A stretch of DNA of 25,589 bases from a virus. Made by a program: the position numbers and the translations under genes. Positions 8,201 through 22,420 of the stretch are shown here, piece after piece. The first letter of the stretch is position 1, and every line of letters starts with the position of its first letter. The stretch covers positions 1-25,589 of IMG/VR virus record IMGVR_UViG_3300045996_000375. One strand, 5' to 3'. Under the pieces are notes generated by a model. That model saw only the letters and a list, made by a program, of their open reading frames with translations. It was not told the DNA's origin and ran no database searches.

Positions 8201-8582
8201 AAACTGTATTGGTAGTGCTTGCTCCTGAGTATTCAGTATTAGTGTTGTTTGATGAATCAAATACTTTACATAAACCCATCTCTACCGAAGTGAGTCCTGA
8301 AGGATTTAGATTGGTTGAGCTTGCTTGTTCGTAAACTGTATATGTATATTCCCCCTCATCTAATTCAACTTCTCCATTTAAGGCTACAGGGCTTGAGGTT
8401 TCAGTTATTACAAACTCATCATATCTCTGTACCTCGGTACTAATGTTGTCAGGTATGCAGTAAGATTTAACCCCAGTTTGATTATTCTTAAACTCAAACA
8501 AGTAATAGGCATTCGATATGCTTCTATTCTCTTCAAGAGTAACTACAACTGTATTGGCTGTATTTTTTGTTAGTCTGATCAC
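8190..8582 (-). CDS. Small beta-rich virion-associated protein (hypothetical)
   Basis: The protein has 130 residues from a GTG at 8582, the only early start in this frame. It is beta-rich and low in Lys, with the phrases YYLFEFKNNQTGV, YDEFVITE, GEVELDEGEYTYTVYEQAS and TNLNPSGLTSVEMG. These resemble a small Bacteroidota phage family encoded next to capsid and portal genes, with no established role. A copy of the repeated 26-bp element lies 8 nt upstream of the start. The end overlaps the portal start by 11 bp. A head decoration or neck protein is a guess from position. Confidence 0.6.
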   Translation of the reverse strand: MIRLTKNTANTVVVTLEENRSISNAYYLFEFKNNQTGVKSYCIPDNISTEVQRYDEFVITETSSPVALNGEVELDEGEYTYTVYEQASSTNLNPSGLTSVEMGLCKVFDSSNNTNTEYSGASTTNTVYEG

Positions 8583-8590
8583 CTATATAT

Positions 8591-8616
8591 AATAATACAC
8601 TAGCCCCCTGTTTTGC
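8591..8616 (-). promoter_or_regulatory. Repeated late element, copy 5 (GCAAAA-N11-TGTATTATT)
   Basis: On the - strand, GCAAAA (8616-8611), 11 nt, then TGTATTATT (8599-8591) lies 8 nt before the GTG of the 130-residue gene. It sits directly after a terminator hairpin (8619-8651), which is what a fresh promoter would need to restart transcription. It matches four other copies in sequence and spacing. Confidence 0.6.
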
Positions 8617-8618
8617 AT

Positions 8619-8651
8619 AAAAAAAGGCAGCCTTTTGAGCCACCCTTTTTT
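8619..8651 (-). terminator. Intrinsic terminator after the tail-tube-like gene
   Basis: On the - strand a stem of 14 base pairs (AAAAAAGGGTGGCT with GGCTGCCTTTTTTT, including G-U pairs) closes a CAAAA loop and ends in a run of seven T. It starts 20 bp after the stop of the 8671-9186 gene. The flanking A and T runs mean it could also act on + strand transcripts. Confidence 0.75.
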
Positions 8652-8670
8652 ATGGAAACCAAACTAAAAA

Positions 8671-9186
8671 TTATGCAGCCGCAGATAATAGAGCTGTAGT
8701 GATTGAGCTTTGAACTTCCCAAGGGAAATTAGGCTCTTTACCTACAAACGATAAAGTATTCTTTTTGATATCAGCAGCGTTTTGTTCTGTTGAACCTCCG
8801 GCAGTAACAAGATCCATTGAACGAGTAATTCCGAAAATTCTAAAGGTATCATCAGCTTCTTTAACGATAATGATAAGCGAATTTTGAGCGATCAGCTTAA
8901 GTTCGTTTTGAATTGAAGTAGTAAGGCCACGAATAGAGAAATCTACTTTATGTTCGTATGAAACATTACCGGCTCCAGTCAAAGGCCAATCAGCCTTACC
9001 AATTTCTTTTTCTAAAATGTACCTACGGAAAAGTTTTCCTGAAGCCATTGTAATAGCGGTAACAATTCCTGAAGCAACAGTATAAGCGGTAACATTATCA
9101 AATTCGGTTAACCAAACTTCTTTGATACCACCCATTCCTGGTTTACAGGCTGTGTATGTATTGCCTTGTGTAAGAGCGCAAGCCAT
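8671..9186 (-). CDS. Tail-tube-like (major tail) protein candidate
   Basis: The protein has 171 residues and is predicted beta-rich. It starts MACALTQGNTYTACKPGMGGIKEVWLTEF-like and contains ITMASGKLFRRYILEKEIG, a strand-rich middle, and a C-terminal LSFVGKEPN phrase. Proteins with the order ACxLTxGYxxxCxxxxGGIKxVxxxxF...LTFxGKE recur in Bacteroidota phages just after the capsid gene, where they look like tail-tube subunits; I rely on memory of that pattern. Transcription terminators lie both before the gene (9219-9236) and after it (8619-8651), as expected for an abundant structural protein. An alternative is a head decoration protein. Confidence 0.55.
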   Translation of the reverse strand: MACALTQGNTYTACKPGMGGIKEVWLTEFDNVTAYTVASGIVTAITMASGKLFRRYILEKEIGKADWPLTGAGNVSYEHKVDFSIRGLTTSIQNELKLIAQNSLIIIVKEADDTFRIFGITRSMDLVTAGGSTEQNAADIKKNTLSFVGKEPNFPWEVQSSITTALLSAAA

Positions 9187-9210
9187 TTATTTATAATTTA
9201 AATTGTTATT

Positions 9211-9236
9211 AAAAAGAAAGGGGAACTTAATCCCCT
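9211..9236 (-). terminator. Intrinsic terminator after the major capsid gene
   Basis: On the - strand AGGGGA (9236-9231) pairs perfectly with TCCCCT (9224-9219) across a 6-nt loop and is followed by TTTCTTTTT. It begins 12 bp after the capsid stop. Termination here would make capsid mRNA more abundant than mRNA of the genes downstream. Confidence 0.7.
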
Positions 9237-9247
9237 CTCAGTATGGA

Positions 9248-10270
9248 TTATCCTCCGTAGAGTACACCGTTAGTAGCACGTGCAAGGTGAGCTTGCATTG
9301 CGTAGATGGTACGGATAAAGCGAGTGTCTCCGTCATTAGCTACCTTACCAATTTCTACCTTATTGTAGTCTTCCAGCATATCAGTACACCAGTTAACTGC
9401 GCTTAGGTTATTGGCATAAGCCATAAGGTTGTTTTGTGTTGGAACGAAAAGAACTTCAATTCCTTGGAAGTAAACCTTAGAGGTAGAGAAGTCGTTTCCA
9501 GTTACAGCGAAATTTACTTGTTGAGCTGCGCCTACTGCGTTATTTGCATTGTAGATTAACTGCTTCCAAGCACGTGGCGCCCAGATTTTAACAGGATCTT
9601 TATCTCCTGCATTCATTACTGTTGGAGTAATGGCAGCGAAAATTTTCCCGAACTCAGTAGCTATATTGGCAGCTGTTACGGTTGTGCCGGTTACTTTAGT
9701 ATAACCACCTATAGCGCCGTTATCATAAAGCGCACGAGCGAAAATTCCATCGATTGGCCCCGCTGTCATAGCGGCTACAGCCGTTTGAGTAGCGGCAGTC
9801 ATTGAGCCTTGAGCTGCGCCAGGAGTTAAAGCCGCGATAGCTGTTTTAGTTGCAGAAGTGATGCCACTCCAGAAAAGACTTTCAGCATCAGCAGAAACTT
9901 TAGGACCGTATACACCAAGAACTTTAGAAGCGAACTCATTGCTTTCAATATTCCAAGCGCCTTTCTTCATGTCACGGTTAAAACGTGATGCACGTAAAGC
10001 CTCATCTAAGAACGTCTGCTTATACTCTAATTTTGTTAGAGTGATAGTGCGATCAGTTAATGTGATAGAGCCAGAAGATGAAAGAGCGGCTCCAGTATAA
10101 GTTTGAGCGGTTACTGAAACAGAAGGATCAGTAAAGATAGTACCAGACTTAATGTTATCTTGAAAAGTACAGTACCCTTCAGCGATTGTTTTATTCTCAA
10201 AGAAAATCTCTTCAAGAACAGGAACTAAGTTAGGTCCGTAGATTGTGGTTGGTGTATAGCTGATTGCCAT
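9248..10270 (-). CDS. Major capsid protein (HK97-fold type)
   Basis: The protein has 340 residues. It follows protease and scaffold genes, the standard place for the capsid. The N-terminal 80 residues are strand-rich (FTDPSVSVTAQTYTGA), followed by a long helix region with FNRDMKKGAWNIESNEF, an Ala/Thr-rich loop (150-170), and a C-terminal part with PVKIWAPRAWKQLI, STSKVYFQGIEVLFVP and a closing YNKVEIGKVANDGDTRFIRTIY, which suit the A-domain and P-domain of this fold. Hundreds of copies form the icosahedral shell. Codon use is even and it has its own downstream terminator, both consistent with strong expression. No fused protease is seen. Confidence 0.8.
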   Translation of the reverse strand: MAISYTPTTIYGPNLVPVLEEIFFENKTIAEGYCTFQDNIKSGTIFTDPSVSVTAQTYTGAALSSSGSITLTDRTITLTKLEYKQTFLDEALRASRFNRDMKKGAWNIESNEFASKVLGVYGPKVSADAESLFWSGITSATKTAIAALTPGAAQGSMTAATQTAVAAMTAGPIDGIFARALYDNGAIGGYTKVTGTTVTAANIATEFGKIFAAITPTVMNAGDKDPVKIWAPRAWKQLIYNANNAVGAAQQVNFAVTGNDFSTSKVYFQGIEVLFVPTQNNLMAYANNLSAVNWCTDMLEDYNKVEIGKVANDGDTRFIRTIYAMQAHLARATNGVLYGG

Positions 10271-10295
10271 TGTTGTTTATTTTTAAGATTATTTT

Positions 10296-10865
10296 TTAAT
10301 TACCTTTTTGATATCTGTATCTCTCAAGCGGAGTCATATCTTCCCAAGATTTCTCAGGAACCACTACAGTAGTATCTACTGGAGTCTTAAGAACTTTATC
10401 CATGAATGAGAAAAAGATTTTGTTTTGATTTTTTAGCTCTTCGATTTCCTTCATCAAATCAGCTTTTTCAGAAGCAAGCTTTAATTCAAAAGCCTTTTCA
10501 ACTTCCTTTTTGTGTGCTGATAATTGAGCAGCCATTTCAGCGGGAGCCTCTGGTTTTACCTCTGACTCAGCCTTTTTAACTGCTGTGATAGATCCTGCCA
10601 CTACCGTTAAGACTGTTTTATCTTCAAGAGTATAGTCACCATCGGGAGCAGGCATACCTTCAATCATTACAGGTGTACCTTCTTTTAATTCTCCTTCGTG
10701 AGATAGGATTCCTTTGTCTGTTTTAGTTTCTGTTAATTGAACAGGAGCAGGAGGTGTGATAGCCTCGTTAAGGCTTAGATTGTATTTATTGATAGTTTCA
10801 ATCTCTTCTTTTGAAAATTTCTCTCTTAAGAATCCGATTGCTTTATTTAGAATATTGTTATCCAT
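10296..10865 (-). CDS. Capsid scaffold protein candidate
   Basis: The protein has 189 residues and is acidic. Residues about 60-92 form a short beta segment (GTPVMIEGMPAPDGDYTLED), residues 108-150 a highly charged long helix (LSAHKKEVEKAFELKLASEK and onward), and the C-terminus is a short amphipathic end (WEDMTPLERYRYQKGN). A long helix plus a capsid-binding C-terminal helix is the usual scaffold plan. It lies between the XkdF-like protease and the capsid gene. A copy of the repeated 26-bp element is 9 nt upstream. Scaffolds guide shell assembly and are then removed by the protease. Confidence 0.7.
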   Translation of the reverse strand: MDNNILNKAIGFLREKFSKEEIETINKYNLSLNEAITPPAPVQLTETKTDKGILSHEGELKEGTPVMIEGMPAPDGDYTLEDKTVLTVVAGSITAVKKAESEVKPEAPAEMAAQLSAHKKEVEKAFELKLASEKADLMKEIEELKNQNKIFFSFMDKVLKTPVDTTVVVPEKSWEDMTPLERYRYQKGN

Positions 10866-10874
10866 CTTAAATTA

Positions 10875-10900
10875 AATAATACAGTGTCCTTAAAATTTGC
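10875..10900 (-). promoter_or_regulatory. Repeated late element, copy 4
   Basis: GCAAAT (10900-10895), 11 nt, TGTATTATT (10883-10875) lies 9 nt before the scaffold ATG. The last codons and stop of the protease gene lie inside it. It is the nearest candidate promoter for the scaffold and capsid genes. One base differs from the consensus first box. Confidence 0.55.
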
Positions 10901-11501
10901 TTAAAATATATTTGACGGCAGCCTGTAACGCCCTATCATCAATGGTTTCAGGGTTTTCTACTTGTTTCATTTTGAATTGAGAATGTATAGACCAACCGTT
11001 AAGCTTGCCGCTTTTTACATCTTCCCAGACCTGATCGTTATAGACTTTGCCCGATAAGAACCAAGTCCCCATAGGCAAATGCTCGAAGTTTTTTATAGAA
11101 GTAGATCGGTTCTCATCAGAAAGGAAGGATTCAAATAATACTACTCCTTCGATAATGTCAGGCCGTGATTCTCCATTAGGAGCTACGATTTCTTTGTGTT
11201 CAATGTTGACGTTGTTAAGCCGGTTGTTCTTAGCGTAATTGATTGCTACTTTTTTAACCGTGTCTCGGTCTATTGTTACCTCACATTCCTGACCCTCGAA
11301 GTTTCTGTAAATCTTCATTCCGGGGATAAGGGCAGGAGCGAAAATGATTCTTTGCTCTTCGTCTTGAATAGAGAAGTTTAGCTTTTGATTTGAAAGCTTA
11401 ATGTATCTTTCTTGAATGGCAGGATCGTTAACTGCTGAAACGGCAAGAACTCCTAAGTTTGTTTCAAACTCATCAAAGACAATTTGTAAAAGGGGTAACA
11501 T
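10890..11501 (-). CDS. XkdF-like prohead serine protease
   Basis: The protein has 203 residues. The layout VSAVNDPAIQERYIKLS, then IIFAPALIPGMKIYR, NNVNIEHK with His102, LPMGTWFLSGKV, VWEDVKSGKLNGWSI with Ser171, is the XkdF/Peptidase_S78_2 pattern. His102 and Ser171 are the expected catalytic pair. This class cleaves scaffold and capsid N-terminal parts during maturation. It comes directly before the scaffold and capsid genes. No MuF or portal part is attached; that domain sits on the portal gene here. Confidence 0.85.
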   Translation of the reverse strand: MLPLLQIVFDEFETNLGVLAVSAVNDPAIQERYIKLSNQKLNFSIQDEEQRIIFAPALIPGMKIYRNFEGQECEVTIDRDTVKKVAINYAKNNRLNNVNIEHKEIVAPNGESRPDIIEGVVLFESFLSDENRSTSIKNFEHLPMGTWFLSGKVYNDQVWEDVKSGKLNGWSIHSQFKMKQVENPETIDDRALQAAVKYILSKF

Positions 11502-11507
11502 ATTTTA

Positions 11508-11533
11508 AATAATACAGTCACCCTTTTTTTTGC
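11508..11533 (-). promoter_or_regulatory. Repeated late element, copy 3
   Basis: GCAAAA (11533-11528), 11 nt, TGTATTATT (11516-11508) lies 6 nt before the protease ATG and 8 bp after the tape-measure stop. It marks the boundary between the tail block and the head block. Confidence 0.6.
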
Positions 11534-11540
11534 TTAAAAC

Positions 11541-13220
11541 CTAACCGAACTTAGCCTGATCTTCTAGCCTCTGTACTCTTTGTTGTTTTTCGGTCACATC
11601 GGTTTCTACCACATCGGCTTTAACGTGAATGTTAAGTGCCGGCTGGCTTAAATTGTTTCCTTTATCATCTAGCTTTGTCGATGGCTGCTGATTTACTTGA
11701 GGTGCATTTCCTCCACTTGGCGGGGCTGGTAAGGCTGGCATAGATGGTGCGCTTCCCCCTCCTGCATCCCCATCTCCTCCGGGAGCTTCAAACTTTGTAC
11801 TCACTATCTTAGCGGTTTGAACGGTTGCAGCAACTCCAACGGCTACGGCATTGGCTACCTTTAGAATAGTTCCGTATGGTTCAGGGATAACAGATTGAGC
11901 AGACAAGGCGTTAATTACCCCTTGAATACCTGAGATAATTGAACTTTGAATGGCAAGGGCTTTATTGATTTGGAATTGACGTTTAGCCATTTTCAATTCT
12001 TCGGCACTTCCTTTCTTCATCTTACTCATCTTAAGACTAAATAGGAAGTCTGATAAATCCTGAGTAGCTTTTAAAGAGGCTTGAGCTGTTGCGGCTGTTT
12101 GGTTAATTTGCTCCTTTTCAATATTAGCTTCGTCTGCTGCTGCCTTTTCCTTTGCTGCCTTTTTATCATTAAGATTTTTAGAGTACTGATTAAATAATTC
12201 GTCGTCCTCTTTTACCTGGTCCTCAAACTTTGATTGCCTGAATTTCTCTTCAATTTCCCTTTGTTCCCTTCTGTAATCTTCATCAATCTTTCTTCTGAAA
12301 TCGTCCATCTCTTTGATGGCTTTTTTCTCGTCGGCTACTTTATCAGATAGGTCTTTCTTTCTTACTTGTGCCGCTTCCTTCGCTTTATCCTGCTCATCTT
12401 TTAAAGCAGTATTCCTTATAACTGTGATTTGATTCTGAGCGTCCCTATTCTCTTCAATGGCCTGTTTAACTGCTTTGCTTTGTTCCTCAGATAATACTCC
12501 TCCTGCTTTTACAAATGCTAAAGCTTGTTCTAAAATAGCCTTGTTAGTCCTTATGATATTCTCCTGCTTTTGGATTTCAAGTTCAATCGTTTCTTTTCCG
12601 GCTGCTTTGGCTGCTGCTATTTGCCTGTCAAATTCTTTGGACTGTTCAGATAAAGCTTCTTTTGTTTTCTCGGCAGAGTTAACGATATTATCGCCCATCT
12701 TATCCAGTTCAGAGTTTGTAAGACCTAAAGCATCAGTTAAGAAGTAAACTCCATCTTTTACCGTGTCAATTATGCCTCCTACAAATTGTAGAGCCTTAGC
12801 GACTATTCCTGTGCCTTTACTTAGCTCATCAAAGTTTTGAATTAAGTAAGTGATACCCTGAACTAATAGCATGATACCCGTAGAAGCTAAAGCCGTTTTC
12901 ATGGCAGTTAGTCCTACTTTGACTTTATCAAAATCAAGGTTACGTAAACCTTCGCCCAACAAATTAAAACCTGAAGAAGCCTTTTCTATTCCTGATCCTT
13001 GTAGACTTCGGGTTGAATCGGTTAAATCGTCCAGCCTATCTTTTAATGCTGCGGCTTTTTTGCTTGCTTCTAAGAATTGCTTTGAACCTTCGCCAAACTT
13101 AGACGAGGCCTCAACCATTGAATCAATAGCCGCCTTGTTTGCCTTGCGTAAATCTCCAACTGTCTTTAAATACTTTTCTTCCCCGTCAATCTTGACTTTA
13201 AATACTTTTTCATCTGCCAT
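11541..13220 (-). CDS. Tape measure protein
   Basis: The protein has 559 residues. It is helical and charged, with a long coiled coil at about 170-400 (KKDLSDKVADEKKAIKEMDD, DYRREQREIEEKFRQ). Hydrophobic stretches lie at about 105-130 (ALASTGIMLLVQGITYLI), 425-445 (IQSSIISGIQGVINAL) and 460-475 (VANAVAVGVAATVQTA), and residues 485-530 are Gly/Pro-rich. This is the composition of tail tape measures, which set tail length and later enter the host membrane. At 559 residues it is short for the class, predicting a short tail. Unusually, it is encoded after the large tail-tip-like gene rather than right after the tail chaperones. Confidence 0.75.
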   Translation of the reverse strand: MADEKVFKVKIDGEEKYLKTVGDLRKANKAAIDSMVEASSKFGEGSKQFLEASKKAAALKDRLDDLTDSTRSLQGSGIEKASSGFNLLGEGLRNLDFDKVKVGLTAMKTALASTGIMLLVQGITYLIQNFDELSKGTGIVAKALQFVGGIIDTVKDGVYFLTDALGLTNSELDKMGDNIVNSAEKTKEALSEQSKEFDRQIAAAKAAGKETIELEIQKQENIIRTNKAILEQALAFVKAGGVLSEEQSKAVKQAIEENRDAQNQITVIRNTALKDEQDKAKEAAQVRKKDLSDKVADEKKAIKEMDDFRRKIDEDYRREQREIEEKFRQSKFEDQVKEDDELFNQYSKNLNDKKAAKEKAAADEANIEKEQINQTAATAQASLKATQDLSDFLFSLKMSKMKKGSAEELKMAKRQFQINKALAIQSSIISGIQGVINALSAQSVIPEPYGTILKVANAVAVGVAATVQTAKIVSTKFEAPGGDGDAGGGSAPSMPALPAPPSGGNAPQVNQQPSTKLDDKGNNLSQPALNIHVKADVVETDVTEKQQRVQRLEDQAKFG

Positions 13221-13341
13221 TTCTTACAGCGTTTTGAGTGTCAATAATTAGTTTTGTGATCTCTTCAGATCCGTTTAATAAGGCTTGCCTGTATACATTA
13301 ATAAGCAAGGCCAAGTCTATTCCTATGTCCTTTGAAACCAT
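13210..13341 (-). CDS. 43-residue small gene before the tape measure
   Basis: The ATG at 13341 lies 19 bp inside the end of the tail-tip gene, and the TGA at 13212-13210 overlaps the tape-measure start by 11 bp. The product is helical and protein-like (MVSKDIGIDLALLINVYRQA, then ITKLIIDTQNAVRN). It fills a 102-bp space that would otherwise be the only gap in this densely packed block. No family is recognised. Coupling on both sides supports translation. Confidence 0.55.
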   Translation of the reverse strand: MVSKDIGIDLALLINVYRQALLNGSEEITKLIIDTQNAVRNGR

Positions 13342-16142
13342 GTTGAACCGTTTGATAAATAAGATTTTCCTAATGATGAAGTAAGGGAGTGACTAAAACT
13401 CCCATCCGTAATTGTTACTGTATTTCCTGAAGTGTCTACCCTTATAAATTCTACAGGCTGACTTGTCCCATCAGAAGGAGCGCAAAGAGTCGCTGTTATA
13501 TTTCCCCCCGTAGCATCTACAAAATAAAGAGGCACTCCGGCAACTGTTGTAAAGTCTGCTGTCTTTGATTCGTAACCTAAGAAAGGAGCTTTAACAAAAG
13601 AAGCCCCCGATTCAGTTACTTTAAATGATCCTCTTAAGTTGGTAGTATTGTTATCCTCGGTTGTTACTTCGGTATTGGCAGGGACAGATATTCCTAAATA
13701 ATCTTCTACGTCATTATTGACTGTGACGTTATTGCTATTCACTAAGCTATTACCCGAACCAAACACCCTACTACCCGTTCCTCCGATAATGGTGTTATCT
13801 TCTCCAACTGCTGTGTTATTACTTCCCCCAAATACTCGTGAGGTCGAAGTAGAACTATTACCTTCTATTGTGAAAGTTGGATCAGAGATTTTAATATCAT
13901 AATCATCCCCTGAAGTATTCCCGGTTCTAGCCGTTATATCAATTATTTCAGATACGAATGTTGTTCCTGTTTTAAGTTTTAAAAGTTCTACTTGAGTAAC
14001 GTCACTTACTAAAGGATTGTAATTGATAATCTTGTTTACTACATAGTAAGCATCATTGTCCCCAATCTGACAAAACACTTTTTTTCTAAAGGAGAATTGA
14101 TGAATGTCAGCTTCGGTTAATCGGAAATAAGCCTTTATAATTTTAGAGTCTGGATCGGTAATCTCTTCAATAAACTTTGAATAATACTTATTGTACAGGT
14201 TGTTATTCGTCCAAACAGGAGAAGGGAAATTGTAATAAAGTTCTTTTGGTATTCCCCAGTTCAAATCAAACGTAGGACTATAAGGATTATCTACGTGACC
14301 GGCAAAAGGAACTTGAGTATAAGTAGTTGTCCCTCCTGCATGAACCAAAGACCAAGAGCCAGAGATTGTGATTAAGCCTCCGTAGTAAATGCTACGGATA
14401 TTCGCTTTCATAGGCTTGATAGTTCCGTTATCATTTTTATAGATAGCCGGAATAACCATGTCATTAAGAATGTTACCAACCAATACCGTATTTGATATTA
14501 TTAGCTCTGTTTTATTGTCACTTTTGTTAAAGTCGTTCGATACTTCAATTAATTCAGATCCGTAAACTTCCTTATAAGTAGTTTCGTATTTCTCATTCCA
14601 GTAATCTTTATCTGGCTTATATGTATACCTTAAATTCTTAAAGTTGAGTTCTCCAACCGGATTAATTTCCCATCCTTTACTAGGGTCGAACTTGTCGGTC
14701 CAGTTCACATAAGCGCCGGTATAAAACCCATCGTCCCTTGATTCTAATACTAACTTTTTTGGATTGGTAGGATCTACGTCCATGTAGATGTTGTACTTCT
14801 TAAACATTGTAAGAAGCCAGTCCTTTTGCTTTACATCTTTCGGAATAGTATTATTTACCGTTAAAGTATTTCCCTCCACTACTTGAGGACTCAATAAACA
14901 ATAGAATGTCGAAGGAACTTTAACTCCTAAAGTGAATGTTCCTGTAGTCGCTGTGTTAGCACCTGTGAAAGTTGGTACACTCCAAAAAGTTGTAGTTCTT
15001 ACTTTGATTCTGAACTGATCGCCCGCAGCAAACAAAGCAGAAGAACAAGTAAGATATTGGGTAACCGTGACTGTAGCTGCTCCTGTAGTTCCTGTAATTG
15101 TAGGAGTGTAAGTTGTAGGTGAGGACTGATAAATAGACCATGTTGCCCCGCCATCGGTAGACCTTTGAGTTAAAATAGAATAACCAACCTGAGCAGAAAA
15201 AGACGTTGTAGACGTTGGAGGCGTTACGGTCAAGTCCATTGTCAGGTTAGTAGATATTGTATAATATCCGGCTGTGCCTACTGTAAAGACTCCTGTTGCC
15301 GTATTATAATTACCTCCCGCATCATTAAAGGGAACGGTTGAATCGTCGTTAAATATTAAGGCGTTATCGTTCTGGTTTGGTACAGTCTTCCACGAACTCG
15401 ACACATAAGAGATAGTATGATTGAAACTCTGGGTAGAACTACGCCCTGCGTAAAACTGAGCGTTATTAACTTGAGTCGGACTTAAGCTTAAGAACTCATC
15501 GACACAAGGAACCAACATTCTCTTAACTAAACTCGAAGTAAGAACGGTTGAAGTATAGGAGTACCCCTTCCCTTCAATTATTTTCTTTATGTATTCGTAC
15601 TCTGAGAAGGCTGGTTTAAGGTGAGTCGTTTTAAAACTGATAGCGTTCTGACCATTGAACCCATAATCAATTAAAGGATAAGTATACCCTAGTCCCGAAG
15701 TATTAGACCAACTGTTAACTATGTTGGTTTGATTTAAGGTATGATCGTAAGCTGAGAAGTCTAAATCTTCAAGTTTATCATCTCCTAAGTCAAGGAATAA
15801 ATTACCCTGTACCCCTATGATGTTACATTCATAAAATATCAGATCGTCTTTTCTTTTGATTCTGAGTAGCTGTAAGTCCCCTCTGAAGTTTTCTAAAGAA
15901 TTGACATAATAAATTGCAGGTATCTTAACGTTGGGGTTGTAAGAACTTAATTTGATATTGACTTCAAAGATGTGTTCAAACAACTGATTAACGTCTTGAG
16001 TGCCTGGAATCGTGACCGTCTTTGTCATTGACGAATCCCTCTTATCAGGCTCTCTTACATTTGCTATCGCATAATTACATGATACCGGAATAGCTGAACT
16101 TAACTGTACGCTCGTTCCATCTATGATTAACTGAGCTGTCAT
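13323..16142 (-). CDS. Large tail-tip / baseplate-like protein with beta-roll and fibre-type C-terminus
   Basis: The protein has 939 residues. The first 120 residues (REPDKRDSSMTKTVTIPGTQ, LFEHIFEVN, PAIYYVNSLENFRGDLQL) match a pattern I know from Bacteroidota phage tail-tip proteins: SKTITIPGTxxNxxxFGHIFE...FRGxLQL. The middle third is beta-rich. Residues about 770-815 hold short YadA-like repeats (GGSNNTAVGEDNTIIGG). Residues about 840-939 form a fibre-type C-terminal domain (DFTTVAGVPLYFVDA, TVTITDGS, YLSNGSTWF). It is coupled to the genes on both sides. It is probably a tail hub or host-contact protein. No enzymatic motif was found. Confidence 0.65.
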   Translation of the reverse strand: MTAQLIIDGTSVQLSSAIPVSCNYAIANVREPDKRDSSMTKTVTIPGTQDVNQLFEHIFEVNIKLSSYNPNVKIPAIYYVNSLENFRGDLQLLRIKRKDDLIFYECNIIGVQGNLFLDLGDDKLEDLDFSAYDHTLNQTNIVNSWSNTSGLGYTYPLIDYGFNGQNAISFKTTHLKPAFSEYEYIKKIIEGKGYSYTSTVLTSSLVKRMLVPCVDEFLSLSPTQVNNAQFYAGRSSTQSFNHTISYVSSSWKTVPNQNDNALIFNDDSTVPFNDAGGNYNTATGVFTVGTAGYYTISTNLTMDLTVTPPTSTTSFSAQVGYSILTQRSTDGGATWSIYQSSPTTYTPTITGTTGAATVTVTQYLTCSSALFAAGDQFRIKVRTTTFWSVPTFTGANTATTGTFTLGVKVPSTFYCLLSPQVVEGNTLTVNNTIPKDVKQKDWLLTMFKKYNIYMDVDPTNPKKLVLESRDDGFYTGAYVNWTDKFDPSKGWEINPVGELNFKNLRYTYKPDKDYWNEKYETTYKEVYGSELIEVSNDFNKSDNKTELIISNTVLVGNILNDMVIPAIYKNDNGTIKPMKANIRSIYYGGLITISGSWSLVHAGGTTTYTQVPFAGHVDNPYSPTFDLNWGIPKELYYNFPSPVWTNNNLYNKYYSKFIEEITDPDSKIIKAYFRLTEADIHQFSFRKKVFCQIGDNDAYYVVNKIINYNPLVSDVTQVELLKLKTGTTFVSEIIDITARTGNTSGDDYDIKISDPTFTIEGNSSTSTSRVFGGSNNTAVGEDNTIIGGTGSRVFGSGNSLVNSNNVTVNNDVEDYLGISVPANTEVTTEDNNTTNLRGSFKVTESGASFVKAPFLGYESKTADFTTVAGVPLYFVDATGGNITATLCAPSDGTSQPVEFIRVDTSGNTVTITDGSFSHSLTSSLGKSYLSNGSTWFQRT

Positions 16143-17368
16143 ATTACGTCCTGCCTATAGTTTTTATGATTGAACTCTACTGTTAATTCGAGATTAAAAA
16201 GCTTTTCATTCTGATAGGTCTTTTCAAAGTATTTGGTATCTGTTATCCTGACTGAATAAGTCTGACCTATTGCATACTGAATGTAAACGGAAGGAGAAGA
16301 AAGTAACTGTTCTAATTGAGTGCTTTGAGTTTCATTGATCCAATCGGACTTTAACTTTAAGGTCTTTCCCTTTTGTACACTTAAAGTATTGGTCACTCCC
16401 TTTGTAGAAGCATAGGTATAAGTAGAAGTGCCTGAATAAGGAATGTGATCTACGTAGGTCTTTTGATATTCATGATTTTTCTCATGCGCTACTGAGAACG
16501 GGAAACAATCATAAGCTCCCGCATCGTTTAAATAATGAAGCCAGAATACCTGATCTTTGGTACAGATGGAATCTACATAAACTGTAAGTGTCGAGCTTAC
16601 ATCGTTCTCATCATCAATAAAGCTTAACACATATTTACTAGCATTGGGGTCTATCGGAACTACGCCTCCGGTAACTTGAGCTAAAGGACAATTTAAAAGA
16701 CCATCTTTGCTTACGTCAATACATAAATACCTCTCATACCAGGTAGCTGAATTGTGAAAAGGATTATTAATTTCTTTGGTAAGGGTGAGTACATAAATAG
16801 GACCGCCCGTATAAGAGTCTACCACTATCTTTTTAAAAGTGGCTGTAGCATCAGCAAGGAAGTATAAGTAAAGACTGTTGGAGGAGGTGACATAAACCTC
16901 ATTATCTCTTTTGTAAGGAAGGTCATTTAAGTACCGAATAGTGGTAAGATCGCTCACATAATTACCAGCACTGTAAGAAGGCCAGTCTAAAAAGTCCTCC
17001 CTTCCATTCCATACATAATAAGTAATATTAGATCCTGCATAATAAGTAGGTGTCGCTCCGTACTCCTCGCCAATGTTTACTACAACCTTTATCAATCCGT
17101 CCGTGACTGTTTTCCAACCATAAAGACCAAGAGGGATATAGGATTTACAGAAAGACCGAACGAAGGATTTAGCGTTAAACTTTAAATAAGTATCGGGAGG
17201 CGTGTTAACCGGCACATCGTATGTGGTAGACCCAGCTTGATTCGATATTGTGATTTTTACATAATACCGAAAATTAGGCTGCGCCAACTGATTGGAGAGG
17301 GCATCAAACCATTGATTGTTAAAAGCTGGAGTATTGGTTGCTGGCTGTTGACTTACTGTGATTGCCAT
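16139..17368 (-). CDS. Putative distal tail / tail structural protein
   Basis: The protein has 409 residues and is beta-rich and aromatic, with many Tyr, Trp and Thr. The N-terminus (QPATNTPAFNNQWFDALSNQ) leads to a beta-sandwich with FRYYVKITI. The C-terminal third has TLSVQKGKTLKLKSDWINET and LEQLLSSPSVYIQY. This order recurs in Bacteroidota phage tails before the tip gene; a distal-tail role is an analogy. It overlaps the gp10-like stop as TAATG and the tip gene start as ATGA. No signal peptide or membrane segment is seen. Confidence 0.5.
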   Translation of the reverse strand: MAITVSQQPATNTPAFNNQWFDALSNQLAQPNFRYYVKITISNQAGSTTYDVPVNTPPDTYLKFNAKSFVRSFCKSYIPLGLYGWKTVTDGLIKVVVNIGEEYGATPTYYAGSNITYYVWNGREDFLDWPSYSAGNYVSDLTTIRYLNDLPYKRDNEVYVTSSNSLYLYFLADATATFKKIVVDSYTGGPIYVLTLTKEINNPFHNSATWYERYLCIDVSKDGLLNCPLAQVTGGVVPIDPNASKYVLSFIDDENDVSSTLTVYVDSICTKDQVFWLHYLNDAGAYDCFPFSVAHEKNHEYQKTYVDHIPYSGTSTYTYASTKGVTNTLSVQKGKTLKLKSDWINETQSTQLEQLLSSPSVYIQYAIGQTYSVRITDTKYFEKTYQNEKLFNLELTVEFNHKNYRQDVI

Positions 17369-17931
17369 TATTCGTTTACGTCTTTAAATATTATATCAAT
17401 GTCTTTTTCAAACTGGTCATTAATTAGCTTCTGAAGAATCTCTACTCTTCCATCATATCTTACACTTTCCCAAAACAGATTACCTTCATATCCTTTTTTC
17501 TGAATCTTTCGGGCTATGGCAAAGGCGAAGCTTTTAATCTTTGATTCTATACTTGCTTGCTTGAATACCTTTTTTACACGTTTGCTTTTTAGCCCTTTTA
17601 TTTTCTTCTTTCTTAAGTCAGATAATTTTGGGGTGAGTCCTTTGCGCTTAATCCATCTCATTATGGACTCTTGTCCTTCTTGGCTTACATTCCCCGGCTT
17701 TCTTCCAACATCTATCCAGTAGTAAGATTTATCCATATAAAAGGTCATGGATATGCCCCCGTTTCCATATTCAACTGAATACTTAATAGAGGCGGCTAGT
17801 CTGCTGTTAGGATTAAAAGAACTTCCTTTCCTTGCTGCTTTAGCCGCTTGTTTTTCATTCAAGGACTTTCTTACATCATCAACTAAAGTCTTTCCGAACT
17901 CATCTAATATGTCTTGTATGGTTTCGCTCAA
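17368..17931 (-). CDS. HK97 gp10-like tail completion / neck protein
   Basis: The protein has 187 residues from a TTG at 17931; no ATG lies near the N-terminus, and the TTG overlaps the frameshift-ORF stop as TTGA. The core phrase YYWIDVGRKPGNV, then ESIMRWIKRKGL, then FAFAIARKIQKKGYEGNLFWESV is the gp10-like pattern (VDxGRxPG...IxxWIxxKGI...LAFAIxxxIxxKG). It is Lys-rich. These proteins close the head-tail joint or terminate the tail. In other phages the gene lies near connector and tail terminator; here it is placed beside the tail chaperones. Confidence 0.7.
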   Translation of the reverse strand: MSETIQDILDEFGKTLVDDVRKSLNEKQAAKAARKGSSFNPNSRLAASIKYSVEYGNGGISMTFYMDKSYYWIDVGRKPGNVSQEGQESIMRWIKRKGLTPKLSDLRKKKIKGLKSKRVKKVFKQASIESKIKSFAFAIARKIQKKGYEGNLFWESVRYDGRVEILQKLINDQFEKDIDIIFKDVNE

Positions 17932-18670
17932 CTTCTGTTAAATGCCTTTAGTGTTTCTTCGATCTCTCCTTTTTGCTTCATGTACTGTAAGTATCCCAGA
18001 TAGTCCACAAAATTTGTTTTAAGCAATTCCTGAAACTTTATAAAGTCATATCCTACTGATTCCATCATAACGTTATACCAGCCATAATCTCTCCTGAAGA
18101 GATACCAAGGGTCTGTAGAAACTCCTTGTCCTGACTCATCTCCTTCAGATGTTCCTTTATTGTTTGATTTGCTTCTTCCAAAAAGAGGATCAAAACGGGA
18201 TTCAACCTCTCCCAAACTTTTGAGTAAAAAAAAACCGTCCCCCAAACAGAACCGATCTTAGCTTTAAGAAAGTCTTTGGCTATTTCTTGTTGGTTCTCGG
18301 AATCCCACTCTTTACCTTCCGGATAAAAGCAGAGTGAGCAGATAAAGTGTAAATTCTTGTACTTGCCTAATTGGTTATAAGTCTCTAAGGCTGTTCCCTG
18401 ATTAGTTGAGAACTTAGTAACATCGGTAACTGAATCGTACCGCTTACCGTTAACCTCAACCTTTTCAACTATCTTTTCAGAAGGTCTTGATGCTATCAAA
18501 TTTTTAATAAGGAAAGAATAAACCTCGTATTCACTAAAAGGAATACTGTCAGGATCTTTACCGGTGAAGTAGTTTATTAACTTAGGCGTACTCTCTTCCT
18601 TTGATTCAAGTACCTCATGAATAAACATAAACTGTTCAACGGTGCATTCATCGTATGATTTAGGTATCAT
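17928..18670 (-). CDS. Tail assembly chaperone, -1 frameshift product (gpGT-like)
   Basis: The first 148 residues are shared with the 201-residue protein. After the slip at 18227 the frame changes by -1 and adds 99 residues to a stop at 17928, for 247 in total. The added part has a Ser/Gly/Asp linker (SKSNNKGTSEGDESG) and a compact helical domain with PWYLFRRDYGWYNVMMESVG and LGYLQYMKQKGEIEE. The frame has no good independent start: only a TTG at 18245, within 20 nt of the slip site. The stop overlaps the next start as TTGA. Residues after the slip resemble a real protein, which supports dual coding of 18065-18227. Confidence 0.6.
18065..18670 (-). CDS. Tail assembly chaperone, unshifted product (gpG-like)
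   Basis: The protein has 201 residues from an ATG 6 nt after a copy of the repeated 26-bp element. It is helical and acidic, beginning PKSYDECTVEQFMFIHEVLE and containing LGKYKNLHFICSLCFYP. It follows the terminases and precedes other tail genes. The T_TTT_TTT site at 18233-18227 would let some ribosomes shift by -1, giving a longer form. Lambda-type gpG and gpGT chaperones work this way, coating the tape measure before tube assembly. The family assignment is by position, helical content and the slip site, not by sequence identity. Confidence 0.65.
   Translation of the reverse strand: MIPKSYDECTVEQFMFIHEVLESKEESTPKLINYFTGKDPDSIPFSEYEVYSFLIKNLIASRPSEKIVEKVEVNGKRYDSVTDVTKFSTNQGTALETYNQLGKYKNLHFICSLCFYPEGKEWDSENQQEIAKDFLKAKIGSVWGTVFFYSKVWERLNPVLILFLEEANQTIKEHLKEMSQDKEFLQTLGISSGEIMAGITL
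18226..18235 (-). other. Predicted -1 ribosomal slippery site
   Basis: On the - strand the zero-frame codons are GTT TTT TTT TAC (18235-18224), giving T_TTT_TTT with both tRNAs able to re-pair after a 1-nt backward slip. Nine T in a row could also cause transcriptional slippage. A G-rich stretch (GGGGGACGG) lies just upstream. Confidence 0.6.
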
Positions 18671-18676
18671 ACTTAT

Positions 18677-18702
18677 AATAATACACCTAGCCTGTTTTTT
18701 GT
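18677..18702 (-). promoter_or_regulatory. Repeated late element, copy 2
   Basis: ACAAAA (18702-18697), 11 nt, TGTATTATT (18685-18677) lies 6 nt before the tail chaperone ATG, in the only gap between the terminase and tail blocks. The first box differs from the consensus GCAAAA at one base. Confidence 0.55.
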
Positions 18703-18709
18703 AAAGGGC

Positions 18710-19936
18710 TTAGTAGAACTCTATTGAATCGTCTTTATTAATCTTATTCAGAGCAACATAGCGGAGGGCATCAATAGCATGGTTATTTAAATCTACCGGT
18801 TCGTTTTGGGCTGCCCCTGTTTTGTCAGATTTCCATTTATAGGTCTTAAGTTCTTTTATAAGATTAGTGGAATCTGAGGTAATATTTAATTTATACTGCT
18901 GAAGGGTGTCAATAGAGTTTTTAACGGAGTCCGGACCTTTCTTTGCCCCCTCAACATTAAAGCCAAATCTACTCAGGTCTTCAATACTTTTAGGTTCAGC
19001 AGAATCGCAAACAATCTCCTCAAAGTTTATTGGAATAGTCCGTAGCTTAGCTGATATGTCAGAATTGGTAAGCCTTGTTTTATAAATAAACTCCTTTACA
19101 TAAAGCTCCCCGTTCTGCTTCCAGACTCCAACTAAAGCAGTAGGATCATTTGTAAATCCAAAGTCAAGCCCATAAGAAATAAAGGTTGCATCTTTAGGTA
19201 TCTCGGAACATTCCTTCCAGTTGTCAAAAATAACTCCTTCTAAGGCTCCGGTTAATCCAAGACCATACACCCTCCATTTATTCGCCCAGTATTTACTTAG
19301 TATATTCTCAGGCTTAAACAACTCATCAAAAGGAATGTCGGGATTCTTAAACCCCTTTTCTTTATATCCTAAAATTGCTTTTACCTCGCTCTCTGCCAGG
19401 TATTCGTTATCTTCAAAAGTTAAGGTTATAAAGTTCTTTTCGTTAATCAGTTCGTCTCCCCAAAACAGCTCATCGGGATTGAAGTCAATAATTGTTAAGG
19501 CTGCTCTAGATATAAACTGATTGGCAGTTTCCATATCCATTTTATTAGCCTCGTTTATGTATAAGATATCCCGCCTGAATCCCTTTCCAAGATCCGTAAC
19601 GTCTGCTCCAAGAAAATCCATGTAGCTATCATTCGGATATTCGTGCTTACTTTCTGATTTATTAAACTCATCGGTAGTGATTATCCCCCAGTCTTTACAT
19701 ATCTTCTTATAGTCACGAATAACTGTTCGCTTCATCTTTGATAGCTCCGAAGATAAAACGGTTGCCTCCTTTTCAGAATTAAGGAGGGCTTGGATAATTA
19801 GCTGTAGAATTGAAATGGTCTTACTTGCTCCTTGACCACCCCTAACAACAAATACGTTTTCGTCTGGATTATCAAGTATTAGCCGGAGAAGTTTAAAGTA
19901 AGCTTTAGTGTATTTGTATTTATTTCCGGTTTCCAA
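18710..19936 (-). CDS. terL: Terminase large subunit
   Basis: The protein has 408 residues from a TTG at 19936; no ATG is available before the ATPase motif, and the start overlaps the small-subunit gene by 17 bp. The Walker A motif is GGQGASKT (33-40) and the Walker B region is RDILYINEANK (145-155). The nuclease half has GLDFGFTNDPTA, with the first metal Asp, then CDSAEPKSI, and a C-terminal VDLNNHAIDALRY with the last acidic residue. It cuts concatemeric DNA and pumps it through the portal. Length is normal for a PBSX-like large subunit. Confidence 0.93.
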   Translation of the reverse strand: METGNKYKYTKAYFKLLRLILDNPDENVFVVRGGQGASKTISILQLIIQALLNSEKEATVLSSELSKMKRTVIRDYKKICKDWGIITTDEFNKSESKHEYPNDSYMDFLGADVTDLGKGFRRDILYINEANKMDMETANQFISRAALTIIDFNPDELFWGDELINEKNFITLTFEDNEYLAESEVKAILGYKEKGFKNPDIPFDELFKPENILSKYWANKWRVYGLGLTGALEGVIFDNWKECSEIPKDATFISYGLDFGFTNDPTALVGVWKQNGELYVKEFIYKTRLTNSDISAKLRTIPINFEEIVCDSAEPKSIEDLSRFGFNVEGAKKGPDSVKNSIDTLQQYKLNITSDSTNLIKELKTYKWKSDKTGAAQNEPVDLNNHAIDALRYVALNKINKDDSIEFY

Positions 19937-20369
19937 TATCAGGAAGGGCAGGGATATTTAAAGTACCCTTAAGTTCGGTCTCAGACTGTTCCTTTAATCC
20001 GAGGTCACGGGATATTATTGTTTGGTTAAACGCTCCCACAGCGGCCCCCTCGAACTTCTGAGTATAGATTATGTTTCTCACGCGCGTAGCAATTTCAATA
20101 AAGTCTTGCCTCTTTTCATAATCTTGCCACGTTTGATGACTAATATCAAGGAACAAATAAAGTCCGGTCCATGTATAAGGAGTCTCGTTAGGTATATGGC
20201 ACTCAACAGCATCCTTTCCATTGAACTCGGTTTTAATCCACTTCCTTTTATCTGTAGCCTCAAAGTATTCTACACAGGCTTCCCAAAGTATTTCAGGAGA
20301 TGAGAATATCTTATCTCTCCCATGCTTTGATCTAAGTTTCCAGAATTGATTATTGTTTGGAGCTGCCAT
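19920..20369 (-). CDS. terS: Terminase small subunit / DNA-packaging protein
   Basis: The protein has 149 residues. TWTGLYLFLDISHQTWQDYE is a helix-turn-helix-like DNA-recognition segment, followed by FIEIATRVRNIIYTQKFEGAAVGAFNQTIISRDLGL, a pattern found in terminase small subunits of Bacteroidota phages. It would recognise the packaging site and feed DNA to the large subunit, whose gene overlaps it by 17 bp. The start overlaps the upstream stop as TAATG. A cos or pac site could not be located. Confidence 0.8.
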   Translation of the reverse strand: MAAPNNNQFWKLRSKHGRDKIFSSPEILWEACVEYFEATDKRKWIKTEFNGKDAVECHIPNETPYTWTGLYLFLDISHQTWQDYEKRQDFIEIATRVRNIIYTQKFEGAAVGAFNQTIISRDLGLKEQSETELKGTLNIPALPDIGNRK

Positions 20370-20590
20370 TATCCTTTACAACATTTTGAATAACTACCAC
20401 TTTCAATGACAGTTCCTTTTTTAATAGCCGATTCTTTTACCCATAGATCGTATTCCTCGCCAAACAATTTAAAAGCTGCGCATACTCTTGTTCCCCTTTC
20501 ATCTATTGAGATACGGTTAATCTTACCTATTAAGATGGTGTTTTCGTTTGCTTGGCAGGCTATGAATTGGCCTATGTTATACTTTTCCAT
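20369..20590 (-). CDS. Small hypothetical protein, beta-rich
   Basis: The protein has 73 residues, predicted as a small beta barrel (IGQFIACQANENTILIGKIN, then TRVCAAFKLFGEEYDLWV), ending in a CCKG tail. It has four cysteines in all. It is coupled to the small terminase by a TAATG overlap. I do not recognise the family; an SH3-like fold is only suggested by strand spacing. Confidence 0.55.
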   Translation of the reverse strand: MEKYNIGQFIACQANENTILIGKINRISIDERGTRVCAAFKLFGEEYDLWVKESAIKKGTVIESGSYSKCCKG

Positions 20591-20676
20591 TTTAATTTAA
20601 GTTTAATCCAACAAGCCCAAAACCTTTTAAGTAGACATACACTATATGGGTATATCCTTCAAAGTATGTATTTCTG
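20591..20676. other. Short intergenic gap in the late operon
   Basis: This 86-bp AT-rich stretch separates the 73- and 72-residue genes. I see no hairpin, no copy of the repeated late element and no full TAnnTTTG box. It is the largest gene-free stretch ahead of the terminases in the operon, so a packaging site could lie here, but no sequence feature shows it. Confidence 0.3.
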
Positions 20677-20895
20677 CTAGGGTTGAACATGGTGTTTTTT
20701 ATTATTGTGCTTTAAGAGCCTTCCCATCATGTGCATATTGTCATCCTTGACAGCCTTTTTAAATTCGTCCTGAAGCAAGTCCCATGTCATATCAGTTACC
20801 TTTCGGGCTTTCTTTCTGGTAAACAATATAAAATCTGCAACCACTACATACAGGGCAACAGCTCCGACTAAAATGATAAACCAAAACTCTATCAT
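20677..20895 (-). CDS. Small single-pass membrane protein
   Basis: The protein has 72 residues. Residues 3-25 form one strong membrane helix (EFWFIILVGAVALYVVVADF), followed by a basic stop (TRKKARK) and a charged cytoplasmic helix (WDLLQDEFKKAVKDD), with a His-rich end. The ATG overlaps the previous stop as ATGA. The role is unknown. A superinfection-related or lysis-related function would be a guess. Confidence 0.55.
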   Translation of the reverse strand: MIEFWFIILVGAVALYVVVADFILFTRKKARKVTDMTWDLLQDEFKKAVKDDNMHMMGRLLKHNNKKHHVQP

Positions 20896-21050
20896 TTATT
20901 CAAATAAGTTAATTCCTGTTCTTTCATTATTGCTTTACAGTTCCAGCACCTTATACCCGCAGAGCGTTTGATAACCTCGTAGACAGGCAGTAAAGTGTCT
21001 ACATAGATCCAACTGTTAGCTCCGCAGGTATGAGTTAAATAATACTTCAA
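20892..21050 (-). CDS. 52-residue Cys-containing small gene
   Basis: It starts at a TTG (21050) that overlaps the previous stop as TTGA, and ends with a TGA that overlaps the next ATG as ATGA. The product has THTCGANSW near the N-terminus and RCWNCKA in the middle; CX2C plus His/Cys could bind zinc. Coupling on both sides and the amino-acid composition support a real gene, although it has only 52 codons and no ATG start until residue 42. Confidence 0.6.
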   Translation of the reverse strand: MKYYLTHTCGANSWIYVDTLLPVYEVIKRSAGIRCWNCKAIMKEQELTYLNK

Positions 21051-21307
21051 TTCTCTTTTATCTTTTTAGGGATGTCTGCTTTATGGTTTAGGATCTTTAC
21101 CCTTTGATCTTTTAAGTAATCAACCATCCAGTTATATTCTTTTAAGGTAAGGTCATTAGGTAAGGCAATAGGTCTGCGAATTACTTTGCCGTGTTTGTAG
21201 TCAGATAGTTCTACTAAAACTTTACAATAAGCCTCTTGAAGCTCATCATAAGTCATTTCTACCGGAGGTGGTAGATTTTTAATTTCAGTTTGGTTTTCGG
21301 GTTCCAT
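21047..21307 (-). CDS. Small hypothetical protein
   Basis: The protein has 86 residues from an ATG placed directly after the preceding stop (0 bp gap). It is helical with a Pro-rich N-terminus (NLPPPVEMTYDELQEAYCKV). A middle segment IRRPIALPNDLTLKEYNWMV is followed by a basic C-terminus. No family is recognised. It is the third gene of the leftward operon, ahead of the terminases. Confidence 0.55.
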   Translation of the reverse strand: MEPENQTEIKNLPPPVEMTYDELQEAYCKVLVELSDYKHGKVIRRPIALPNDLTLKEYNWMVDYLKDQRVKILNHKADIPKKIKEN

Positions 21308-21547
21308 TTATTTTTTAGGTTTGGTTTCGGGCTTCTGTGATTTTGATAGCTCAATCTTATACCACATTAACATATCTATGATACAGTCCTGACAGCCTCC
21401 GTGAACGTTTACGCTTGGGTTAGCTTCTTTGAAAGGCTTGATTAATGGCTGTAAGATGTCGCTTGACCATTGAAGTCTGGCGTTAGTATCTATCCAAAGT
21501 TGAAAGGTTGGTAGATTGGATTGAAAATGTTTTAATGCTTCTTCCAT
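21308..21547 (-). CDS. Small hypothetical protein with CxxC
   Basis: The protein has 79 residues. The N-terminal helix contains FQLWIDTNARLQWSSDIL, and residues about 50-60 read HGGCQDCIIDMLMW, a CxxC at a helix start. A copy of the repeated 26-bp element lies 6 nt upstream of the ATG. I recall short proteins with a GGCxDCIxxML pattern in Bacteroidota phages, of unknown function. It is the first gene of its transcription unit if the element is a promoter. Confidence 0.6.
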   Translation of the reverse strand: MEEALKHFQSNLPTFQLWIDTNARLQWSSDILQPLIKPFKEANPSVNVHGGCQDCIIDMLMWYKIELSKSQKPETKPKK

Positions 21548-21553
21548 AATTAT

Positions 21554-21579
21554 AATAATACAGTTAGGGTTTGTTTTGC
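21554..21579 (-). promoter_or_regulatory. Repeated late element, copy 1
   Basis: GCAAAA (21579-21574), 11 nt, TGTATTATT (21562-21554) lies 6 nt before the ATG at 21547. The first box overlaps the last codons of the sigma-like gene and the stop lies in the spacer. It matches the consensus at all 15 fixed positions. Confidence 0.6.
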
Positions 21580-22094
21580 TTAACGGCTGTATATAAATAC
21601 TTTCTTCCCGTTTCCCTGGCGTTCCTTAAACAGTAGTGACTTATCTTGGTCTTCTTACTCATATCCGTTACTGACTCCTCTTGAAGCTGAAGAAACACCG
21701 ATACCGGAAACCACTTGTCGGGACTTTGTAAAGCCTCCTCTACTGCTCTTTCCATTCTTGTAAACTCGATCTCTTTTAATTCGTGGGTTTTAGTTGAAGT
21801 GTATTTAGTAGTCAGATTTACTTCATATCCTACCTTTGGGATTTCGTGAAGGGTTGAGGTTGAGAACCTTCTCTTTTGATAAAGCCCCTTCATAACTAAT
21901 AGGACTAAGTTTCTTAATGTCCCGCTTGCCTGAAACTTAAGGATAACGGAAGGATTAACTTTTAACACAGCCTCATAAGAATCATTAGCCATGTCTTCCC
22001 ACAAGTAATACCCTTTATAATACTGCTTACATACCCTTTGATAATAAGAGTAAAACTCGGTGTAGTGTTGGTCAATAATAGTTTTGGTTTCCAC
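21564..22094 (-). CDS. Sigma-70-like transcription regulator
   Basis: The protein has 176 residues from a GTG. Residues 14-45 (FYSYYQRVCKQYYKGYYLWEDMANDSYEAVLKV) fit sigma region 2, helix plus the acidic D..Q/E motif. Residues 57-76 (SGTLRNLVLLVMKGLYQKRR) continue region 2, and residues 128-172 (WFPVSVFLQLQEESVTDMSK through TGRKYLYTAVK) resemble the region 4 helix-turn-helix. Similar short sigma-like proteins are present in Bacteroidota phages. It is the first gene of the late operon, so it could direct RNA polymerase to late promoters such as the repeated 26-bp element. No region 3 is visible. The assignment is by pattern and is not certain. Confidence 0.6.
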   Translation of the reverse strand: METKTIIDQHYTEFYSYYQRVCKQYYKGYYLWEDMANDSYEAVLKVNPSVILKFQASGTLRNLVLLVMKGLYQKRRFSTSTLHEIPKVGYEVNLTTKYTSTKTHELKEIEFTRMERAVEEALQSPDKWFPVSVFLQLQEESVTDMSKKTKISHYCLRNARETGRKYLYTAVKQNKP

Positions 22095-22101: not shown

Positions 22102-22133
22102 AATTAGGTCAAACTAATTAGGCATACCTAATT
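22102..22133. promoter_or_regulatory. Triple AATTAGG repeat, candidate operator
   Basis: AATTAGG occurs at 22102-22108 and 22116-22122 (14 bp apart), and its complement CCTAATT at 22127-22133. The last two form an 18-bp inverted repeat with a CATA centre. The cluster begins 8 bp upstream of the GTG of the sigma-like gene, where it would cover a promoter, so a repressor or activator site is likely. An integrase accessory site is an alternative. Confidence 0.5.
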
Positions 22134-22196: not shown

Positions 22197-22231
22197 AAAA
22201 AACCCCTGAAAGTATTATCCTTCAAGGGTTT
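22197..22231 (-). terminator. Leftward terminator between integrase region and late operon
   Basis: On the - strand an 11-bp stem (AAACCCTTGAA at 22231-22221 with TTCAGGGGTTT at 22210-22200, one G-U pair) is followed by TTTATTT-type T-rich sequence. In the + direction the stem has a C-A mismatch and no T run, so it is a leftward terminator. It would stop transcripts reading leftward from the repressor/secreted-protein unit. Confidence 0.6.
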
Positions 22232-22400
22232 CAGCCGCTTTGGCTTTATTCTTCTAGTGGTTCCAGAGGGAGTTTTTATGTTCAAAACTTTTACTTTTTG
22301 ATGTTCAACTCATTACCCCTTAAAGCCTTGATATTATTGAGATTGATGGATTTTTTGTTTCCTTTTTAAAACATTTATAACCACCTTTAAACCCTGATTT

Positions 22401-22420
22401 TTTCTACAATTATTCTACAA
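22401..22420 (+). repeat. Paired TTTCTACAA-like repeats, right pair at the integrase start
   Basis: TTTCTACAA occurs at 22401-22409 and ATTCTACAA at 22412-22420, again 11 bp apart. The last A is the first base of the integrase ATG, so binding here would block int expression. With the six T before it, the pair nearly duplicates the left pair at 22154-22180. Confidence 0.5.

Follow-up and report, generated by a model that had tools for sequence, protein, structure and literature searches.

Late sigma factors encoded by phages are already known from phiEco32 and from the phiEco32-like Salmonella phage 7-11 (PMC8948821, PMC4331800). In the parts of these reports on which we draw, the late promoters of phage 7-11 are read by its sigma factor SaPh711_gp47 together with the host core polymerase, are bipartite (consensus GTAAtg-(16)-aCTA) and lie before late genes, while phage 7-11 and its relative phiEco32 have similar promoter positions and different promoter sequences. 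ECF (group IV) sigma factors are recognized by a pair of short domains with a linker between them, and by AAC and CGT promoter boxes (PMC8103513). Bacteroidota housekeeping promoters consist of TTTG and TAnnTTTG boxes (PMC6847099, PMC7366714, PMC9723704), the second of which, the -7 box, spans positions -12 to -5 (PMC9723704) and has a TTTG part that is nearly invariant in F. johnsoniae (PMC6847099).

Here, we analyzed a window of 25,589 bases, comprising an entire virus record that is not necessarily a complete genome. Five elements located in front of its late genes are probably late promoters read by host RNA polymerase in combination with an ECF-like sigma factor that the phage itself encodes at 21564-22094. 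The first-pass annotation had proposed a phage-specific late promoter, and this gained support from the candidate sigma factor, from orthologous elements in related phages, and from covariation between element and sigma. As in the 7-11 system, insofar as the sections cited above describe it, a putative phage sigma would work with the host core polymerase on bipartite promoters preceding late genes; the 16 nt between the three-base core of the upstream box and the -10 box resemble the phage 7-11 spacing, and positions are again kept while sequences differ between relatives. Unlike the window phage, phage 7-11 is described there as lytic, infects Salmonella rather than Bacteroidota, and has other box sequences, and those sections report neither a region-2/-10 exchange nor near-leaderless mRNAs for phage 7-11 or phiEco32.

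Genome setting and late genes

The late genes lay on the - strand in the order terminase, 201-aa gene, tail genes, protease, putative scaffold, putative major capsid, 171-aa gene, 130-aa gene, and portal. The features considered below were as follows.

21564..22094, - strand: sigma-like gene, 176 aa, GTG start; proposed late sigma factor
21554..21579, - strand: candidate late promoter element 1, GCAAAACAAACCCTAACTGTATTATT, 6 nt 5′ of the 79-aa gene
21308..21547, - strand: 79-aa gene; homologue directly after the sigma gene in relatives
18710-19936, - strand: terminase
18677..18702, - strand: candidate late promoter element 2, ACAAAAAACAGGCTAGGTGTATTATT, 6 nt 5′ of the 201-aa gene after terminase
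18065..18670, - strand: 201-aa gene, behind element 2
11508..11533, - strand: candidate late promoter element 3, GCAAAAAAAAGGGTGACTGTATTATT, 6 nt 5′ of the protease gene
10890..11501, - strand: head maturation protease (Peptidase_S78_2), behind element 3
10875..10900, - strand: candidate late promoter element 4, GCAAATTTTAAGGACACTGTATTATT, 9 nt 5′ of the putative scaffold gene
10296..10865, - strand: putative scaffold gene, behind element 4
9248-10270, - strand: putative major capsid gene, after the putative scaffold gene
8591..8616, - strand: candidate late promoter element 5, GCAAAACAGGGGGCTAGTGTATTATT, 8 nt 5′ of the GTG-start 130-aa gene
8190..8582, - strand: 130-aa gene, behind element 5; portal gene next, downstream

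Among the gene names given earlier, that of the protease was borne out by a protein match (Peptidase_S78_2, E 1.8e-9), and those of the scaffold, the tail chaperone and the 130-residue virion gene derive from position and synteny only. The 79-aa gene had a sub-threshold and probably irrelevant Pfam match to WWE (E 0.0035). A second ORF in another frame (17928-18245) overlaps the 201-aa gene in the manner of tail assembly chaperone pairs that use programmed frameshifting, and a comparable overlap was present in the related contig L006 (2681-3298 and 3235-3423).

An integrase-like ORF at 22420-23607, recognized by inspection of its translation, and an S24-peptidase (CI/LexA-like) regulator suggest that the phage is temperate. 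The terminase was 42% identical to those of Flavobacterium phages and the capsid 37% identical to that of Cellulophaga phage phi46:1. Alignment against bacterial genomes returned one relative for the portal, in a MAG named Bacteroidetes bacterium, and no match for the capsid. The terminase, capsid, and portal relatives thus point to Bacteroidota hosts.

Five copies of a bipartite element

The earlier description of the element held in all particulars: GCAAAA-N11-TGTATTATT is present on the - strand at each of the five positions listed above, with an 11-nt spacer in every copy, a first box that is exact in three copies and changed once in the others (ACAAAA at 18702-18677, GCAAAT at 10900-10875), and a distance of 6, 6, 6, 9, and 8 nt from the end of TGTATTATT to the start codon. 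TGTATTATT itself occurs exactly five times on the two strands of the window, always within an element. Enrichment over shuffled background, proposed earlier as a check, was clear, with five sites at up to one mismatch versus none in 60 dinucleotide shuffles; TGTATTATT alone gave 5 versus a shuffle mean of 0.65 and a maximum of 2. A matrix built from the five copies recovered no sixth site in the window, the next score being 8.8 versus 34-43 for the members, and the remaining late genes of the window, among them the putative major capsid gene, had no element before them. A scan of the window with the sigma70 consensus revealed no clear excess (50 versus 42.4 in shuffles, sd 5.9).

The element extends further than first described, to TTWAGCAAA on the 5′ side and TATTATTWWAA on the 3′ side, giving the register GCAAA-N14-TATTATT. 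Element 1 overlaps the last codons of the sigma-like ORF, and element 4 the end of the protease ORF. Directly upstream of element 5 the window has a GC stem followed by a T-run, and most relatives likewise have a T-run upstream of the element of the 130-aa gene, such that a restart of transcription at this point makes sense.

A candidate ECF-like sigma factor

The sigma-like gene is located just upstream of the late genes, and no copy of the element was found before its own start. The window protein had no match in Pfam (even at E 10) or in PHROGs, a search with this single sequence exposed no relative in viral contigs or named phages, and comparison with PDB by sequence gave no meaningful match. 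Homologues were found in contigs L018, L006, and L179 and in those of a clade of relatives designated A (see below), and those of L018, L006, and clade A precede a small relative of the 79-aa gene, upstream of the terminase. In five of eight family members Pfam Sigma70_r2 was matched weakly, with a best E of 0.0084.

The predicted structure (mean pLDDT 72.7, pTM 0.45) comprises helices at residues 3-77 and 108-173 joined by a low-confidence linker (77-109), which is the ECF layout of sigma2 and sigma4 only with a linker under 50 residues, a likeness of modeled architecture only. When the model was searched against PDB structures, each of the best 13 matches was a sigma factor or a sigma factor complex, ECF in most cases, at weak scores (E 0.18-2.3, low TM-scores); matches in BFVD included phage sigma proteins, with a best E of 5e-3. 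The evidence is suggestive, not proof, that ORF 21564-22094 is a member of a diverged ECF-like sigma family. It shares with ECF sigma factors a length of about 175 aa and the two helical domains and linker of the model, and its clade A homologues accompany an element that has AAC upstream and CGT in the -10 box. Unlike ECF systems, the window has GCA and TATT boxes rather than AAC and CGT, no anti-sigma neighbor was identified (the conserved neighbor is the 79-aa gene), and the protein falls below the Pfam detection limit. The combination of a sigma-like gene with a specific element before late genes is that of the known phage late sigma systems, given a sigma identity that is putative here.

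Conservation of element positions in relatives

The first-pass annotation had named loss of the element in close relatives as evidence against a promoter. What we observed was retention of the positions together with change of the element sequence, in step with the sigma. No other phage was found to carry the window's element sequence at its late genes. Exact matches to it in viral contigs (23 stretches with one copy each) were regarded as chance, some being TTGACA-N16-TATTAT sigma70-like sites of other phages and many apparently intragenic.

A sample of 80 portal relatives yielded two further clades, A and B. Phages encoding the sigma shared one geometry, namely a five-base upstream box, N14, and a seven-base -10 box about 5-9 nt from the start codon, and elements of this geometry were located at orthologous late genes. 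The clade A element is AACAA-N14-AC[GA]TTAT and that of clade B CCAAA-N14-TATTTAT, both before orthologous late genes; the ACGTTAT phages of clade A (AACAA-N14-ACGTTAT) thus have the AAC/CGT boxes that the window lacks. L006 and L179 have AACCT or AACTA-N14-TATTAT. In L018, TTTACACGTTAT-like elements precede the homologue of the 201-aa gene, the protease, the scaffold, and the 130-aa gene, with an upstream box that is variable and least clear in this contig. In L016, the capsid of which is 70% identical to that of the window, TTTGTAAAA...TTTATTATA is present before the 201-aa gene homologue, the scaffold, and the 130-aa gene. Sorted by position, counterparts at the orthologous start were present for element 2 in clade A, L006, L016, L018, and L179; for element 3, at the protease, in L018 and clade A and not in L016; for element 4, at the scaffold, in clades A and B, the L016 group, and L018; and for element 5 in nearly all relatives having the 130-aa gene.

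Two further observations were made among the relatives. In L142 (record G017) the sigma-like gene at 1400-2010 is split by frame changes, through either assembly error or real decay; G017 is the only long clade B record and the only one with the sigma region, and the elements of the clade are conserved. Additionally, the 9-mer GGGTAAGAT, over-represented in L009 and L013, proved to be a repeat clustered shortly before the terminase and not a promoter set; the clusters, in both orientations (L009 9294-9492, L013 7639-7837), are possibly a packaging or regulatory site.

Covariation of sigma form and -10 allele

Clade A sigma proteins exist in two forms: the N-terminal half, which resembles region 2, differs between them, and the last ~60 residues are alike. 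The form with LYFKLLAEK ("LLAE") was accompanied by ACGTTAT in 16 records and the form with LY(I/L)KLSNSN ("SNSN") by ACATTAT in 3. Sigma form and -10 allele therefore matched in 19 of 19 records without exception, a count made up mostly of near relatives, with only two phylogenetically independent comparisons (both in agreement) and to which no P value is attached. Region 4 and the upstream box AACAA were unchanged between the two forms; region 2 and one -10 base switch jointly in this clade. In one aligned pair, DNA identity was 0.58-0.63 in the region-2 part versus about 0.9 in the adjoining flanks, and it also dropped elsewhere in the late region, e.g., in the terminase. As judged from these sequences, region 2 was exchanged within clade A.

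Promoters several kilobases apart within a contig carried a single allele in 23 of the 24 contigs having at least two promoters. The sole mixed contig, L086, has ACATTAT at the protease (5871) and scaffold (6464) and ACGTTAT at the 130-aa gene (8752); it may have recombined recently, or it may argue, as a test case, against strict coupling. The portal tree requires 8 changes of the -10 allele, and well-supported branches force five in the larger group. Mapped onto the terminase tree, the sigma form changes 3 times, occurring in both of its two deep clades. Because both trees conflict with the grouping by sigma and allele, common descent or linkage alone is an insufficient explanation, and the coupling survives recombination of the intervening genes. 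The terminase large subunit of clade A itself exists in two deeply different versions that have been swapped between phages; in L157 versus L172 the swap lies 1000-2100 bases after the sigma start, in surroundings otherwise about 90% identical.

Possible host-type promoters and competing explanations

The window sites were said earlier not to fit the Bacteroidota consensus in spacing, which holds only in part. Their sequence does depart from it: the -7 position holds TATTATTA or TATTATTT in all five sites in place of TAnnTTTG, and TAAG, TATG, or TTTA stands where TTTG would be expected at -33 with N19-21. The spacing on its own does not, since TTTG-N19-TATATTAT is present at L016 sites, and the departure from the host consensus thus lies in the sequence. 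Late sites of the L016 group are mostly TTTG-N19-TATATTAT or TATTATAT, with the host TTTG -33 box, a spacing within N19-21, and a variant -7 box, for which use of a host-type promoter would be the simplest reading. A sigma homologue was not found in G001 (28.5 kb), G018 (36 kb), G022 (20 kb), or G023 (34 kb), three of which (G001, G022, and G023) belong to the L016 group by their portals; the four records may be incomplete, or their sigma may be highly diverged. Housekeeping promoters and these phages, above all the L016 group, thus resemble each other in layout, with an upstream box about 19 nt from the -7 box, but neither TTTG box is present in the window or in the remaining phages that encode the sigma.

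These data bear directly on whether the elements are variant promoters for the host primary sigmaABfr, perhaps aided by a phage activator, with the sigma-like gene unrelated. The L016 sites, from phages in which no sigma was found, and the leading TA that TATTATTA shares with TAnnTTTG speak for this, but with the TTTG of the -7 box missing in five of five window sites, no TTTG at -33, and the agreement of -10 base and sigma form across the 19 clade A records left unexplained, we regard it as unlikely. Operator sites bound by a late activator or repressor of the phage, rather than core promoters, would likewise be bipartite, phage-specific, and upstream of gene blocks. Yet the elements occupy the promoter-core position next to the start codons, are not palindromic, and leave no space for a separate promoter before the gene unless it overlaps, and what covaries with them is the half of a sigma-like protein that resembles region 2, which renders this reading very improbable.

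Least probable of all, and barely credible in our estimation, is that the elements are A+T-rich, Kozak-like translation-initiation signals in the mRNA. Bacteroidota genes lack Shine-Dalgarno sequences and initiation is tuned by other sequence near the start (PMC6847099), and the 3′ box does lie 6-9 nt from the start codon, but a fixed second box ~30 nt upstream is not accounted for, and only five gene starts carry the element, the putative major capsid gene being among the late genes without one.

A model for late transcription

Under the preferred reading, i.e., late promoters served by a phage sigma, host RNA polymerase carrying the 176-aa protein would recognize the five elements, the TATTATT -10 box through sigma region 2 and, 14 nt upstream of it, the GCAAA box through region 4. 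We infer the identity of the sigma, its binding to the elements, the start sites, and the late timing from the observations above. If the -10 box is assumed to run from -12 onwards, like the host -7 box, transcripts would start 1-4 nt 5′ of the 79-aa, 201-aa, protease, scaffold, and 130-aa genes, each heading a late block, and near-leaderless mRNA in the window phage would follow from this geometry. Such leaders differ from what is usual in Bacteroidota, where those under 10 nt are rare: leaderless mRNAs make up 5.5% in F. psychrophilum (PMC9723704), and leaders of <10 nt 3.7% in B. thetaiotaomicron (PMC7366714). For the scaffold gene of the L016 group the predicted leader is about 20 nt.

In the open-access literature we found no report of phages of Bacteroidota having a late sigma/promoter pair, which does not prove its absence. 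What we describe looks like a new, unrecognized branch of phage late sigma factors in phages of this phylum. The novelty appears to lie in the family itself and its host phylum, in a natural exchange of region 2 that is matched by the promoters, and in mRNAs that would be almost leaderless by design. More tentatively, and with somewhat less than even confidence, we suggest a widespread late-sigma family in which the -10-reading domain is exchanged between phages as a module, every late promoter changing to match, the -35 domain and its box stay constant, and morphogenesis mRNAs are near-leaderless. The named protein and named DNA element amount to a testable late-gene switch for metagenomic Bacteroidota phages and would supply a phylum-specific, orthogonal promoter/sigma pair, while the natural domain swap yields a prediction of the protein region responsible for reading the -10 box. 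Concerted promoter change could also limit which phage modules recombine. If leaders are truly 1-4 nt, leaderless translation in Bacteroidota becomes directly testable, and morphogenesis would run on near-leaderless translation in hosts where such is rare.

Finally, we noted two features upstream of the sigma-like gene. An 18-bp palindrome, AATTAGGCATACCTAATT, is located just upstream at 22116-22133 with an extra half site, AATTAGG, beside it at 22102, both (22102-22133) between the sigma-like and integrase-like genes; this is possibly an operator for control of the sigma gene by the prophage repressor, encoded at 24273-24878. Further upstream, at 22199-22232 on the - strand, is a strong terminator-like hairpin of 14 pairs.
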